From contig JAETTM010000042.1 in the NCBI GenBank assembly GCA_021769135.1, forward strand, positions 1-35,787: a stretch of 35,787 nucleotides of DNA, given 5' to 3'. Source of the stretch: Lachnospiraceae bacterium (GTDB lineage: Bacteria; Bacillota; Clostridia; Lachnospirales; Lachnospiraceae). This document shows, one piece after another, positions 11,634-19,328 of this stretch. The notes beneath the pieces are model-generated. The model saw only the letters and a program-made list of their open reading frames with translations, made no database searches and was not told the DNA's origin. The translations under genes were made by a program, and so were the position numbers. Numbering within the stretch: the first letter of the stretch is position 1; each line of letters opens with the position of its first letter.

Positions 11634-12881
11634 TTAAAAAACTTTTCCGTACTTCTCCGCCAGCTTCACCAAAAGCTCCACAATCTTTTCCATTTCATCT
11701 GCACAGGCATATTCAAATCTCCCATGGAAATTCTGTCCTCCGGTGCAAAGGTTAGGACAGGGCAGCCCCATATAGGACAGCCTTGCTCCGTCCGTTCCTC
11801 CCCGGATAGGCACTACCATAGGTTTAATCCCCAGTTCTTCCATGGCCTCTTTGGCATTGTCCACAAGATGCATGTGCTCCTCTATAATTTCTTTCATATT
11901 ATAATAGGAATCCTTCATCTCTATTTCAAAGGTTTTCATGCCATATTTGAGATTCAGCAAATCGCCGATACGCAAAAAGTTTTCCTTTTTCTTCTCAAAT
12001 TTCTCCCTGTCATGGTCTCTGATAATATATTCCGCTACCGTTTCTTCTACCGTGCCTTTGATGGAATCCAAATGATAAAAGCCTTCATACCCGCTGGTAT
12101 ACATGGGGCTCTCCGCCGCCGGAATCTGCGACTGGAATTCCTGGGCCATCAGAATCGCATTGCGCATTTTCCCTTTCGCTTCCCCTGGGTGCACGCTCCT
12201 GCCATGGACGGTCACTTTCGCCCCCGCCGCATTGAAATTCTCATATTCCATTTCTCCCAGCTTTCCGCCGTCCACCGTATATGCATAATCCGCTCCAAAA
12301 AGCTTCACGTCGAAATGGTCCGCGCCCGCTCCCACCTCTTCGTCCGGCGTAAAGCCAACACGAATCTTGCCATGGGCTATTTCCTTATGCTGCAGCAGAT
12401 ATTCTGCCATCGCCATAATCTCTGCCACCCCCGCTTTATCATCCGCACCAAGCAAGGTTGTTCCATCGGTGACAATCAGCCTTTTTCCTTGATAGGATGC
12501 CAGTTCAGGGAAATCGGATACTTTCATGACAATCTGCTTTTCCCCGTTTAGCACAATGTCTTTCCCATCATAATTTTCCACTATCCGGGGATTCACCCCT
12601 GCCCCCGTCACCGCCGGAGCCGTATCCATATGGGCGATAAACCCAAGCACCGGGGCCGTCTCATGCCCCGCCGATGCCGGTACGGAAGCATATACGTAAC
12701 AGTGCTCCTTATCATAGGTAATCTCTTCCGCCCCCATTTCCTCCAACTGCTTCACCAGCACTTTTGCCAGATTGTGCTGCTTCTGGGTAGAAGGCGTCGA
12801 GTTGCTGCCTTCCTCCGACTCCGTATCGATTTTCACATACTGCAAAAAATTCTCAATTACTCGTTCCAACGCAATCACCAT
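11634..12881 (-). CDS. pepT: peptidase T (tripeptidase)
   Basis: 415 residues, standard for the M20B tripeptidase that removes N-terminal residues from tripeptides in the cytosol. Zinc-site segments are all present: [34 protein letters not shown] and NFHGRFEY near the C-terminus. The start is uncertain: ATG at 12881 lies directly after AAAAGG, whereas a TTG at 12869 ([15 protein letters not shown]) has better spacing and matches the usual family N-terminus. An extended -10 (TGC TATATT, 12896-12904) is so close that it also favours the later start. Confidence 0.95.
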
Positions 12882-13069
12882 CCTTTTCTATCACCAATAT
12901 AGCATTTTATGGGATTGTTTGGAAGGGGGTTTTTTCTTCGGCCATCAAAAATCGGGCCAAATACCTCACTCTAGCAAAAGTTGGGGGTAAGCAGCCGCTT
13001 GGTTCTCTGTCCGCAGCGCCCCTCAATAATTTTAACAAAAATTTTACACACATCTTTGCCTTTTTGATG

Positions 13070-13075
13070 TATAAT
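13070..13075 (+). promoter_or_regulatory. -10 element of the riboswitch transcript
   Basis: TATAAT about 23 bases before the conserved 5' aptamer strand. No good -35 lies at 17 bp; TTTACA (13043-13048) is too far at 21 bp. Confidence 0.5.
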
Positions 13076-13097
13076 AAGATAAATTGTTGCAGTACCA

Positions 13098-13259
13098 ATG
13101 AAAGGGAGTAGCCGGCATATATATGGATTCCGAAGCGACATACCCGGTTGCGGCGGATAGTTTTTTCACAAAAAGAACTCTCGCTGTAATCCGCTTGGAA
13201 TTGAAATGGCAAGACTTTTATTGCACGTAGTTGTCTATGTGCGGTGAAGGTCTTTTTTT
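13098..13259 (+). promoter_or_regulatory. yybP-ykoY (Mn2+) riboswitch with intrinsic terminator
   Basis: The 5' strand AAAGGGAGTAGC (13101-13112) and the 3' strand GGCAAGACTTTT (13208-13219) are the conserved P1 ends of yybP-ykoY aptamers as I know them. Between them lie CGACATACCCGGTTGCGG (13136-13153) and a helix GCGGAT/ATCCGC (13152-13157 with 13188-13193). The 3' strand AAGACTTTTATTGCAC (13211-13226) can instead pair along 16 bp with GTGCGGTGAAGGTCTT (13239-13254), which is followed by seven T. Metal-stabilised P1 would therefore block the terminator and switch the gene on, the logic known for this class. It directly precedes the decarboxylase beta-subunit gene. Identification is by remembered consensus, not by a covariance search. 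Confidence 0.8.
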
Positions 13260-13354
13260 ATACGAAACCGCATCATAAGATGCATGCATTCTTTTCCGCA
13301 CATAGATGCAAAACGGTATCCATCTAAAACAAGAAAGAAACGAGGTAAAGTATT

Positions 13355-14491
13355 ATGGAATTTATTTTGGAAGGAATCATGTCTGTCACATGGCAGCAAA
13401 TGGTAATGTATTTCATCGGTATCCTGCTTATCTGGCTTGCCATCCACAAAGAATACGAGCCATCCCTGCTGCTTCCCATGGGGTTCGGCGCCATCCTGGT
13501 CAATTTGCCCGCTTCCGGCGTGCTGAACCAGACAATGGAAGGGGTCGGGGAAATAAACGGGATTATCGAATGGCTGTTCCAAGTGGGAATCGAAGCTTCG
13601 GAGGCTCTTCCTATCCTTCTTTTCATAGGAATCGGAGCCATGATTGATTTCGGCCCGCTTCTGTCAAAGCCAATTATGTTCCTTTTCGGAGCGGCCGCCC
13701 AATTCGGTATTTTCGGAGCTATCCTGATAGCTTCCATGCTTGGGTTCGATTTAAAGGATGCGGCTTCCATCGGCATTATCGGCGCTGCCGACGGCCCCAC
13801 CTCCATACTCGTATCCCAGGTGCTCCATTCCAATTATATCGGCGCTATCGCGGTCGCAGCCTATTCCTATATGGCCCTCGTTCCTGTGGTGCAGCCCTTT
13901 GCCATCCGCCTGGTCACCACGAAAAAAGAACGGTGTATCCGCATGGCATACAAACCCACTCAGGTATCCAAACAGCTTCGCATCGCTTTTCCCATCGCCG
14001 TTACTTTTATTGTAGGGTTCATCGCCCCCTCTTCCGTGGCGTTGGTAGGTTTCCTGATGTTCGGCAACCTTATCCGGGAATGCGGCGTCCTCGGCACTTT
14101 GTCGGAAACCGCGCAAAACACCTTGGCGAACTTAATTACATTGCTCCTGGGAATTACTGTTTCCTTCAGCATGAAAGCCGATGCTTTCGTCCGCCCCGAT
14201 ACCCTTTTTATCATGGGAATAGGGCTTGCCGCTTTCGTGCTGGATACCATAGGGGGCGTCCTTTTCGCCAAAGTTCTCAACCTGTTCTTGCGCAATAAAA
14301 TCAACCCCATGGTAGGAGCCGCAGGAATCTCCGCCTTCCCTATGTCTTCCCGGGTTGTGCAGAAAATGGCCATGAAAGAAGACCCCGGCAACGTGCTCAT
14401 TATGCAGGCGGCCGGAGCCAATGTATCAGGGCAAATCGCTTCAGTGATTGCCGGCGGGCTGGTGATTCATTTGGTATCGGGGTATTTGTAA
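13355..14491 (+). CDS. Na+-translocating decarboxylase beta subunit (OadB/GcdB/MmdB type)
   Basis: 378 residues, about 9-11 helices. This is the membrane subunit that couples decarboxylation of oxaloacetate, methylmalonyl-CoA or glutaconyl-CoA to Na+ export. Family signatures: LLLPMGFGAILVNLP, LLFIGIGAMIDFGPLL, the Asp-containing GIIGAADGPTSI and the C-terminal NPMVGAAGISAFPMSSRVVQ and AAGANVSGQIASVIAGG. The start follows a purine-rich ribosome site (gaggt, 13344-13348). A tiny gamma-like subunit follows, but no carboxyltransferase alpha subunit or biotin carrier is encoded here. Control by the upstream riboswitch is unusual for this family. Substrate cannot be assigned. Confidence 0.9.
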   Translation: MEFILEGIMSVTWQQMVMYFIGILLIWLAIHKEYEPSLLLPMGFGAILVNLPASGVLNQTMEGVGEINGIIEWLFQVGIEASEALPILLFIGIGAMIDFGPLLSKPIMFLFGAAAQFGIFGAILIASMLGFDLKDAASIGIIGAADGPTSILVSQVLHSNYIGAIAVAAYSYMALVPVVQPFAIRLVTTKKERCIRMAYKPTQVSKQLRIAFPIAVTFIVGFIAPSSVALVGFLMFGNLIRECGVLGTLSETAQNTLANLITLLLGITVSFSMKADAFVRPDTLFIMGIGLAAFVLDTIGGVLFAKVLNLFLRNKINPMVGAAGISAFPMSSRVVQKMAMKEDPGNVLIMQAAGANVSGQIASVIAGGLVIHLVSGYL

Positions 14492-14527
14492 TTACCTATT
14501 TCTATTATCCAAGAAGGGAGAAATATT

Positions 14528-14662
14528 ATGGGAGAAAATGTAATTATCGCACTTGAAATTATGGGCAAGGGAATGGCAGGTATCTTTGTAGCAACCCTTT
14601 TAATTGTAGGCATGGTATCTTTGCTTTCCCGAATATTTTCCGCACATAAAAAGTCAGAGTAG
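14528..14662 (+). CDS. OadG-like gamma subunit, 44 residues
   Basis: MGENVIIALEIMGKGMAGIF then ATLLIVGMVSLLSRIF and a basic tail AHKKSE: one membrane helix preceded by the G-K-G-M-A-G-I-F motif of the small gamma/OadG subunits that hold decarboxylase pump subunits together. AAGGGAG (14513-14519) lies 8 bases before the ATG. It sits 36 bp after the beta-subunit stop, so it is almost certainly co-transcribed. It is shorter than most OadG proteins, lacking the C-terminal metal-binding tail. Confidence 0.85.
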   Translation: MGENVIIALEIMGKGMAGIFVATLLIVGMVSLLSRIFSAHKKSE

Positions 14663-17363: not shown

Positions 17364-19328
17364 ATGAAAATCACTAACTTGGAATGCCCCTCCTGCGGGG
17401 GCAAGCTGAAACCGATGGATGGAAATTCCCACATTATGATTTGCGAATACTGCAACAGCCAGTTTATGGTGGAGGATGATGTGACCGTTAACTACCATAT
17501 CCACCAGTCCCCTCCCAGCCAGGCGCCGAAGCAAACAGAAATCCCCTCCAACAAAGGCCCTATCGCCGTAGGGATTATTGCTGCCGTCGGTTTTCTTTCC
17601 ATCATAATACTAAGTTCCTCCTTTTCGCGGCAGCAATCCGGAACTTCTTCCGGCAGCCCTTCTTTCCAAATAGCGGACAGCGATTACCCTGATTCCTGGA
17701 GCGTTGATGAATATGAGGAAGAGGAACTTCCGGCAGAGCACAGCCCGTTCTATACCGCCATGACGGAAGCTATCTTCGAAAAAGAGTCCGGCAGGATTAC
17801 TGACGAGGACCTGAAGAAAATAAAATATTTAAAAGTCTATACCAGCCTGGACTTCTACACTGTGGAATATAGTTTCCAAAGCCCTTACGAAAACGAAGGC
17901 GCTGCCTTTGAAACCGTTACCCTCCGGTTGGAGCCTTCCGCCTGGAATTGTTGGGATTTGGCTTCTTTTCCCGGATTGGAAAAATTAGATATCAGCAATG
18001 AAAAGGCCGAAAACGTACCTCTTGGGGAGTTTACCCAGTTAAAAGGGCTTGTCTGCCATGGGGCAGCCCCTGATGAAATTGCCCAAATGCTGCCCTCCCC
18101 CGGTCAGCTTCTGGAGCTTTCCCTTGACGGCCCGGAAACCCTGGATGGAATCGCCGCCTTTGACAACCTGGAAAAACTCACCGTGGAAGATATCTATGAG
18201 CCCGACCTGAAACAACTGGTTTCCCTGCAAAACCTGAAGTTTTTATCCCTTCAGGAAGAGGATGACTCGGACCCGTTTTCCGATTCGGAGCCAACCTCCC
18301 TCACCGACTATTCCGCCCTCTCCGTGCTGACAGGGCTGGAAAGCCTGGAACTTTCCTCTCCCTTCATCCGGGATTTCAGTTTTTTAAAGCCTTTAACCGG
18401 CCTTAAAAGCTTATCCCTGGCGGAATCCGAGGCTATCAGCATAGCGCCGCTGGCGGAGCTCCCCCAGCTTACCTATCTAAAATTGGAGGGAAATAACGCT
18501 TTGCAGGATTACAGCCCTGTGGCAAGCCTTGCCAGCTTACATACATTGGTCATAGATAAAGGCACTTCCCAGCCTGACCCCGACTTATCTTCCCTCCAGC
18601 AGCTGGAAGACCTGGACATGAGCGGCTTCATCTCCATCTCCTTCTTAAACCGCATGGGCAGCCTGAAACATCTGTCCATCCATAGCTGCAATATTGATGA
18701 AATCAGCGCCCTTTCCGGACTGACCGGACTGGAAACCCTTACCTGCTACTCCGTCTGGACTTATGCCGTTCCCCTGATGGATGTGAACTTCATCGACGGA
18801 ATGGCCAATTTAAAATCCATTGATTTCAGCGGGGGCAGCGATGACAGCTGGGGCGGCTTTCAAAATTACGTCCAGATTATGGGGGATATTTCCAACGTAT
18901 TTAACCACCCCGGCCTGGAAAAGCTTATCCTCAACAACTGCATGTTCGCCCTGGAATTCGACAGGCTGACGGAAAACCCTGACTTAAAGCATTTGGAAAT
19001 GAAAGAAGTGGATTTAAAAGAGAATTTTTACGTAGAAACTTATAACGGTATGAGCGATATATGGTATGACGACGTATCCCTGGATGAGCACATAAGCTTC
19101 CTCTCCAATTACCCCAACCTGGAGGAGCTCTATCTGGACGGGAACCAGCTGACAAACATCCAGTTTGCATCCGCCTTGCACCAGCTGACTATGTTCAGCA
19201 TCAAGGACAATTACATCACCGACTTATCGCCCCTGCATCAGGCGGAAAACCTGAAATACCTCGATATCCGCACCAACCCAATCACCAGCACCATAGAAAA
19301 TGACGGTTCGATACTTATCCTGAAGTAG
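17364..19328 (+). CDS. zinc-ribbon, membrane-anchored leucine-rich-repeat protein
   Basis: 654 residues. An N-terminal zinc ribbon (C8-x2-C11 ... C27-x2-C30) is followed by a linker, one membrane helix at about 66-86 and an acidic spacer. From about 190 onward there is a long series of SDS22/internalin-like leucine-rich repeats (LTGLESLELSS, LTGLKSLSLAE, LPQLTYLKLEG, LEELYLDGNQLTNI). The ribbon lies in the cytoplasm and the LRR domain outside, by the positive-inside pattern. LRR domains bind proteins or glycans; no catalytic domain is present. It is co-transcribed with the GH2 glycosidase, but I cannot link the functions. Confidence 0.85.
   Translation: MKITNLECPSCGGKLKPMDGNSHIMICEYCNSQFMVEDDVTVNYHIHQSPPSQAPKQTEIPSNKGPIAVGIIAAVGFLSIIILSSSFSRQQSGTSSGSPSFQIADSDYPDSWSVDEYEEEELPAEHSPFYTAMTEAIFEKESGRITDEDLKKIKYLKVYTSLDFYTVEYSFQSPYENEGAAFETVTLRLEPSAWNCWDLASFPGLEKLDISNEKAENVPLGEFTQLKGLVCHGAAPDEIAQMLPSPGQLLELSLDGPETLDGIAAFDNLEKLTVEDIYEPDLKQLVSLQNLKFLSLQEEDDSDPFSDSEPTSLTDYSALSVLTGLESLELSSPFIRDFSFLKPLTGLKSLSLAESEAISIAPLAELPQLTYLKLEGNNALQDYSPVASLASLHTLVIDKGTSQPDPDLSSLQQLEDLDMSGFISISFLNRMGSLKHLSIHSCNIDEISALSGLTGLETLTCYSVWTYAVPLMDVNFIDGMANLKSIDFSGGSDDSWGGFQNYVQIMGDISNVFNHPGLEKLILNNCMFALEFDRLTENPDLKHLEMKEVDLKENFYVETYNGMSDIWYDDVSLDEHISFLSNYPNLEELYLDGNQLTNIQFASALHQLTMFSIKDNYITDLSPLHQAENLKYLDIRTNPITSTIENDGSILILK

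Follow-up and report, generated by a model that had tools for sequence, protein, structure and literature searches.

The window, a stretch of 35,787 nucleotides from a Lachnospiraceae bacterium (contig JAETTM010000042.1), carries a gene for an OadB-like beta subunit of the oxaloacetate decarboxylase (OAD) sodium pump, followed by a 44-residue OadG-like peptide (mini-gamma) and preceded by a leader RNA. Our computational analysis indicates that the leader is almost certainly a yybP-ykoY (Mn2+) riboswitch, and it places the OadB protein in a stand-alone group that likely works independently of an alpha subunit. As an explanation for this arrangement we favour, at a little below even confidence, a decarboxylase-free cation exporter, made up of OadB and mini-gamma and induced by Mn2+ through the switch. 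The original prediction, made from the sequence of the window, had left two readings side by side, a Mn-dependent decarboxylase pump and a Mn2+ exporter without the decarboxylase; the former now appears the less likely half. The features are listed in Table 1.

Table 1. Elements of the leader and the two genes behind it, in window coordinates.
Feature	Position	Strand	Basis
yybP-ykoY-type (Mn2+) aptamer, three-way-junction form without P4, extended P3 hairpin	13100..13220	+	Matches of models R1 and R2
L1 core GGGAGUA (GGGAGUA(G))	13104..13110	+	Alignment A4
L3 ACAUACC	13138..13144	+	Alignment A4 and comparison with X. oryzae L3
Intrinsic terminator stem, 20 pairs, then TTTTT	13211..13254	+	Folding and sequence inspection
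Stand-alone OadB-like beta subunit, 378 aa	13355..14491	+	PF03977 (OAD_beta) E 9.7e-148; TIGR01109 397.8 bits
Mini-gamma, 44 aa, one predicted membrane helix	14528..14662	+	Weak OadG-like profile matches

The leader RNA and its aptamer class

For the structure of the leader, ten leaders of relatives were aligned to a hand-drawn secondary structure (alignment A3). They were picked for good alignment from about 30, and other L3 types and leaders with long inserts, the window's own included, were dropped before the count. A3 was preferred to the alignments A1 and A2, which misplaced P2 and P3 in some rows. In A3, 92.7% of the cells were paired and 15 of the 28 pairs showed changes on both sides, a level that none of 500 shuffles reached; when the partners were slid, pairing fell to 32-45%. 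Covariation supports the closing (switch) helix, the helix beyond L1, P2 and P3. In the helix that follows directly on L1, pair 12-96 is G-C in some rows and has become A-U in three of the ten. The covariance model built from A3 (R1), with the window copy outside its training set, matched the window leader over its full length (61 bits, E 5.3e-14), and a second, refined model whose training set includes the window copy (R2) gave 63.7 bits (E 2.8e-12). In the larger alignment A4, changes on both sides were seen in 26 of 28 pairs, A4 being an alignment fitted to the structure.

The two conserved ends of the aptamer that the original prediction had pointed out are both in place, the L1 motif at the 5′ side and GGCAAGACUUUU as the 3′ strand. 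Among the 101 rows of A4, the GGG and both A's of L1 are present in all, the fourth G in 100 and the U in 98. The column of A13140 holds an A in 95 of 97 non-gap rows and corresponds, by alignment, to the invariant adenosine that serves as Mn2+ ligand (A41 in Lactococcus lactis, A48 in Xanthomonas oryzae). The X. oryzae L3 is ACA48UACU (PMC6754395). The window L3 is of this type (ACAUACU), and the relative L050 carries the L. lactis type, UCAAUUC. By a strict pattern, the same two strands occur upstream of 23 of 98 related oadB genes (at least 55% identity).

The fold stability of the leader lies far above that of 200 shuffles (z = -4.89). The strand AAGACUUUU is common to the terminator stem and the aptamer: the 5′ arm of the terminator includes the 3′ strand of the aptamer closing helix, and the aptamer match stops at 13220. 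Hence the terminator and its overlap with the aptamer agree with what had been proposed, whereas the stem has 20 pairs instead of 16. The use of the 3′ aptamer strand by the terminator points to an ON switch, as in L. lactis, where Mn2+ makes the switch helix more stable at the expense of the terminator (PMC11087558). The window copy is predicted to respond to Mn2+. A promoter scan gave no match on the forward strand. The outer P3 hairpin insert (window positions 13145-13190) differs strongly in L066:4711-4890, although the OadB encoded there is 99% identical, and is perhaps a hot spot for change.

The covariance search proposed as a check of the class, against RF00080, did not find the leader: the window had no Rfam match at the gathering threshold, and no family matched positions 12880-13360 at E<=10. 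RF00080 likewise gave no match anywhere else in the genome to which the window belongs and none at gathering in 18 oadB loci. In 150 Lachnospiraceae genomes it found three places in three genomes, none above the cut-off, whereas R1 at E<=0.1 found 106 places in 78 of the same genomes (own genome included). Because almost none of the leaders in this family are picked up by RF00080, we count its silence against the Rfam model, which is weak in this lineage and overlooks a large set of leaders, and not against membership of the class. A fresh seed alignment would recover these Mn-type leaders. Below the cut-offs, 35 loci were tested: in 11 the leader matched RF02617 (SSRC10, 'Streptococcus sRNA 10'; E between 6e-5 and 0.9), and in one it matched RF00080 (L095, E 0.012). 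The consensus of RF02617 reads like a terminated yybP-ykoY leader, and this family may be misfiled as a small RNA. In four leaders with another L3 type (L011, L016, L039 and L088), the GGGAGUAG and CGAGAC or CAAGAC strands are visible by eye; they are absent from the R2 matches at E<=0.1 and stand outside the counts. At the weakest R1 places (L217, L218 and L219, E 0.015-0.095) the core is absent by eye, and these places may be false.

In the genome that the window comes from, R1 marks three places, one each ahead of the oadB gene of the window, an unknown 141-residue gene and mntP. For the class by context, we took the longest open reading frame (ORF) starting at most 700 nt behind 105 of the 106 R1 places and behind the mntP place of the own genome; the place omitted, G013:C6, is the known oadB leader L083. 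One of these 106 loci had no ORF, which leaves 105 genes, with families assigned from one representative per cluster (Pfam). The usual targets invoked in the original prediction, Mn exporters, are well represented, with 33 P-type cation ATPases and 14 MntP proteins, together with 12 Na/Ca exchangers, 12 members of an unknown small family, 9 OadB, 5 SPFH, 4 CNNM, 3 ABC and 2 CitMHS proteins and 11 single genes, two of which were put to Pfam. Applied to E. coli K-12, R2 ranked the mntP leader first in its stretch (E 5e-4) and also found that of alx (E 0.026), neither of them part of the training set; both leaders are described as Mn switches (PMC9603457). Covariation, the L1/L3 core, the overlap with the terminator, the set of controlled genes and the match to the E. 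coli mntP leader together are the grounds on which we assign the leader to the yybP-ykoY class with hardly any reservation.

A stand-alone group of OadB proteins with short gamma partners

The OadB-like ORF and the short peptide behind it are present as first described. The predicted OadB structure (predicted local distance difference test score, pLDDT, 86.5) matches 6iww_A with a template modelling (TM) score of 0.85 by query length; the match to NapA and CitS is weak (at most 0.51 by the same measure). We compared the surroundings of related genes by tblastn (E<=1e-6), with the canonical proteins of the own genome as queries and flanks of 0-5 kb per side. None of 99 loci with at least 55% identity, among them several duplicates, had homologues of the carboxyltransferase (CT), OadG, the biotin subunit or OADA in the flanks, compared with 10 of 11 loci below 55% identity, which are canonical. 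The lack of an adjacent carboxyltransferase or biotin subunit noted for the window is thus a much wider pattern. The nine OadB genes behind R1 places are also all of the stand-alone type, as judged by their places, which excludes a complete alpha-subunit operon under this leader in all relatives. In a quick, unrooted IQ-TREE run, one branch with full support (SH-aLRT, the Shimodaira-Hasegawa-like approximate likelihood ratio test, 100) has 64 stand-alone proteins on one side and 28 canonical ones on the other.

Stand-alone OadB was found in many Bacillota and some spirochaetes. In the comparison that the original prediction had proposed as a check, the leader recurs before lone oadB genes: 35 of the 150 family genomes hold a stand-alone OadB (at least 60% identity), and in 16 of these a model-detected switch lies directly upstream or one gene upstream of oadB (14 from the R1 genome scan plus G019 and G099; G046 is weak).

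The similarity of the mini-gamma peptide to OadG is weak, with both profile scores below the curated cut-offs (PF04277, E 0.044; NF040909, E 0.0032 and a score of 17.5 against a cut-off of 25). The NF040909 cut-off was passed by two of ten mini-gamma peptides of relatives tested (L035 and L054). By pattern, a short OadG-like peptide follows 87 of the 99 stand-alone oadB genes, with a median of 45 residues and 83 of them no longer than 60; the remaining 12 loci include contig ends and probable wrong start picks. Of the 76 positions of the gamma profile, the window peptide covers 3-38 and the canonical gamma subunit of the same genome 2-75. In the Salmonella enzyme, the gamma helix that lies on beta comprises residues 2-43, and retention of alpha requires the tail 61-84 (PMC7274780). 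Mini-gamma keeps no more of OadG than the helix that binds beta, and at this length it should associate with beta but not with alpha.

Residues were compared between 94 distinct stand-alone and 28 distinct canonical proteins. The Na+-binding Asp203, Ser382 and Asn412 (StOAD numbering) are invariant in both groups, as are Tyr229, Asn373, Gly377 and Arg389. In the stand-alone group Arg304 is retained in 7 of 94 proteins and Asn311 in 67 of 94, the latter compared with 28 of 28 canonical proteins; the exchanges R304A and N311A are reported to inhibit decarboxylation moderately and to have no strong effect on Na+ binding (PMC7274780). Conversely, Ile97, Ala144, Ile325, Phe328, Gln360 and Gly367 are fixed in all 94 stand-alone proteins and occur in none of the canonical ones. 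Glu83 and Met273 occur in 94 of 94 as against one of 28 each, and Asp297 in 93 of 94 as against none. In the predicted secondary structure, Gln360 shares a helix with the Na+ ligand Asn356, which it follows by four residues; Asp297 sits in the middle of the helix 281-309. Two new carboxylates, a methionine and an amide that have become fixed would suit a changed ion site.

Possible functions of the pair

The favoured mechanism would run as follows. At high Mn2+, and possibly Ca2+ too, the aptamer would dock and hold the 3′ strand of its closing helix, so that the overlapping terminator would be blocked and oadB and mini-gamma transcribed. The two products would assemble in the membrane into a complex that resembles the beta3-gamma3 core of the oxaloacetate decarboxylase pump and has neither carboxyltransferase nor biotin carrier. 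This complex would act as a secondary elevator transporter with the cation:proton antiporter fold, most likely moving cations outward, and its cargo would be a divalent ion, Mn2+ or some other, with coupling to Na+ or H+ via the conserved Asp146/Ser326/Asn356 site. As a function for the pair, we tentatively place the export of Mn2+ or of a related divalent ion ahead of Na+/H+ handling and of an auxiliary part in a decarboxylase. More doubtful is the broader proposal that stand-alone OadB and mini-gamma constitute a new family of Na+- or H+-coupled exporters of Mn2+ (or Mn2+ and Ca2+), which would have lost the enzyme, gained a divalent-ion site (Asp146, Asp297, Gln360, Met273 and Glu83) and come under the Mn2+ switch in part of the group. 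If it is true, a textbook Na+ pump driven by an enzyme has a membrane half that also exists as an independent ion transporter, and manganese homeostasis gains an exporter family. Current models name the stand-alone proteins 'decarboxylase subunit'.

Several observations weigh against the favoured explanation. R1 matched the E. coli leaders weakly (alx, E 0.062; mntP, E 0.2), with a chance-like place at 0.11 between them. On the tree, 36 of 90 stand-alone oadB genes were scored with a switch. A few of these matches are weak or lie as far as about 2 kb off; four rows with too little upstream sequence were omitted, and some rows scored as lacking the switch have about 1.5 kb upstream or less. Because of this count and the 21 changes of state needed, Mn2+ control of stand-alone oadB is recurrent but not obligatory. 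Glu40 is invariant in both groups (94 of 94 stand-alone proteins); its exchange E40A causes a severe loss of carboxybiotin decarboxylation, and Glu40 is described as not critical for Na+ binding (PMC7274780). Canonical proteins also vary at Arg304 (R in 12 and Q in 16 of 28). The residue evidence on decarboxylation is thus mixed, with Glu40 kept and Arg304 mostly not. Finally, a PYC_OADA protein is encoded somewhere in 21 of 22 and 8 of 9 genomes tested, and the own genome has a complete canonical operon (CT, OadG, biotin, OadB, OADA) on contig 80 (G000:C80), so that the window pair is not the only OadB of its genome and an alpha partner could be shared with it. Alpha-less genomes were dropped as proof of independence, the exceptions G156 (1.8 Mb, metagenome-assembled) and G064 (61%-complete) being taken as uninformative.

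The canonical operon and the invariant Glu40 would both fit a pair that serves as a spare membrane part for the biotin-dependent decarboxylase at G000:C80, a Na+ pump with borrowed subunits whose Mn2+ control reflects the metal use of the carboxyltransferase. The same holds for G065 and G117, where the stand-alone OadB is the only OadB, yet CT, biotin and OADA genes are present with no OadB between them (G065:C44, L262; G117:C4, L263). These sets are perhaps transcarboxylases. That CT, biotin and a 5S-type OADA can make a transcarboxylase without any beta subunit counts against the spare part. Given also a mini-gamma that lacks the alpha-recruiting tail, relaxed Arg304 and Asn311, and flanks free of alpha genes at 99 loci, we consider the spare part improbable. 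Somewhat less unlikely is an auxiliary Na+/H+ exchanger or Na+-handling unit that moves Na+ and H+ instead of Mn2+, and whose induction by Mn2+ would follow from a disturbance of pH under Mn stress or from a load of Na+ imposed by other induced exporters (Na/Ca exchangers, CNNM). These two kinds of protein are Na+-coupled. Both occur behind the same switch, and the order switch, CNNM-type gene, oadB is found in L004, L006, G033 and G132 (Pfam on the G033 copy), an order that is also in keeping with the favoured exporter. The invariant Na+-site residues, a fold near those of NapA and CitS and a reported alkalisation circuit acting on the mntP switch (PMC9603457) also fit, but a plain Na+ carrier has no obvious need for the newly fixed Asp297 and Gln360, on helices by the ion site, or for Met273 and Glu83. 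A Na+ pump would also be suited by a leader of another ion class such as Na+-I (DUF1646), which precedes oxaloacetate decarboxylase genes in some bacteria (PMC9337991). This we regard as highly improbable. As described there, the motif has P1 and P2, both of them extended paired regions, and a 66-nt construct was used to test it; we rejected this identity on that description and on the lack of any Rfam match at E<=10. The latter is weak alone, RF00080 failing there too; the yybP-ykoY L1/L3 core, the Mn/Ca gene set and the kinship to the E. coli mntP leader weigh more.

Comparison with known systems and further observations

Among known yybP-ykoY riboswitches, the nearest layout is that of Streptococcus pneumoniae mgtA, a three-way-junction aptamer reported to bind Ca2+ as well (PMC9495176). 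The window leader shares with the class the L1 motif, the invariant L3 adenosine, a closing helix that competes with the terminator, and MntP and P-type ATPase targets; it differs in escaping RF00080, in lacking P4, in its long variable P3 insert and in its OadB/mini-gamma target. With the OadB/OadG beta-gamma sub-complex (PDB 6IWW), the pair has in common the PF03977 domain, the fold, the Na+-site residues and a one-helix gamma partner. Unlike that complex, its locus has no alpha or biotin subunit, the gamma tail is missing, Arg304 and Asn311 are relaxed, and Glu83, Met273, Asp297 and Gln360 are fixed. The NCBIfam entry NF040909, 'OadG-related small transporter subunit', likewise comprises short OadG-like peptides, under a name that states no function. 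Elevator transporters of the CitS/NapA type (CPA superfamily) share the fold of the predicted model and likely the elevator motion, although they superpose weakly and their partners and oligomer are expected to differ. In open-licence literature we found no report tying a Mn riboswitch or Mn export to the oxaloacetate decarboxylase beta subunit or OadB, and none on a manganese riboswitch in Lachnospiraceae or on an 'OadG-related small transporter'; the papers nearest to the subject concern Na+ riboswitches and, by their titles, expression in Salmonella.

The genes behind these leaders are candidates for metal homeostasis. They include the unknown family found behind the switch in 12 of the 105 cases, which has about 140-180 residues and in many members a SARNWGxxDxxGGG-like stretch (e.g. 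L115:1778-2200, on C11 of the own genome); no Pfam match was found for L204 and L115, nor a NCBIfam match for L115. SPFH/Band_7 proteins follow the switch in five of the 105 (L155, L140, L169, L172 and L183; one member was put to Pfam).

In five spirochaete loci (L055, L056, L057, L058 and L061), two conserved proteins are encoded downstream of the stand-alone oadB, one of about 500 residues and the other smaller; they may be DUF1538 and PII. In L007 the gene between switch and oadB encodes a Na/Pi cotransporter. A long ORF separates a weak match from oadB in L021 and L067, both scored as switch-bearing; the one in L067 encodes a leucine-rich-repeat protein. Leucine-rich-repeat proteins are encoded near the locus both in the window (17364-19328) and in L067 (L067:2905-4980).

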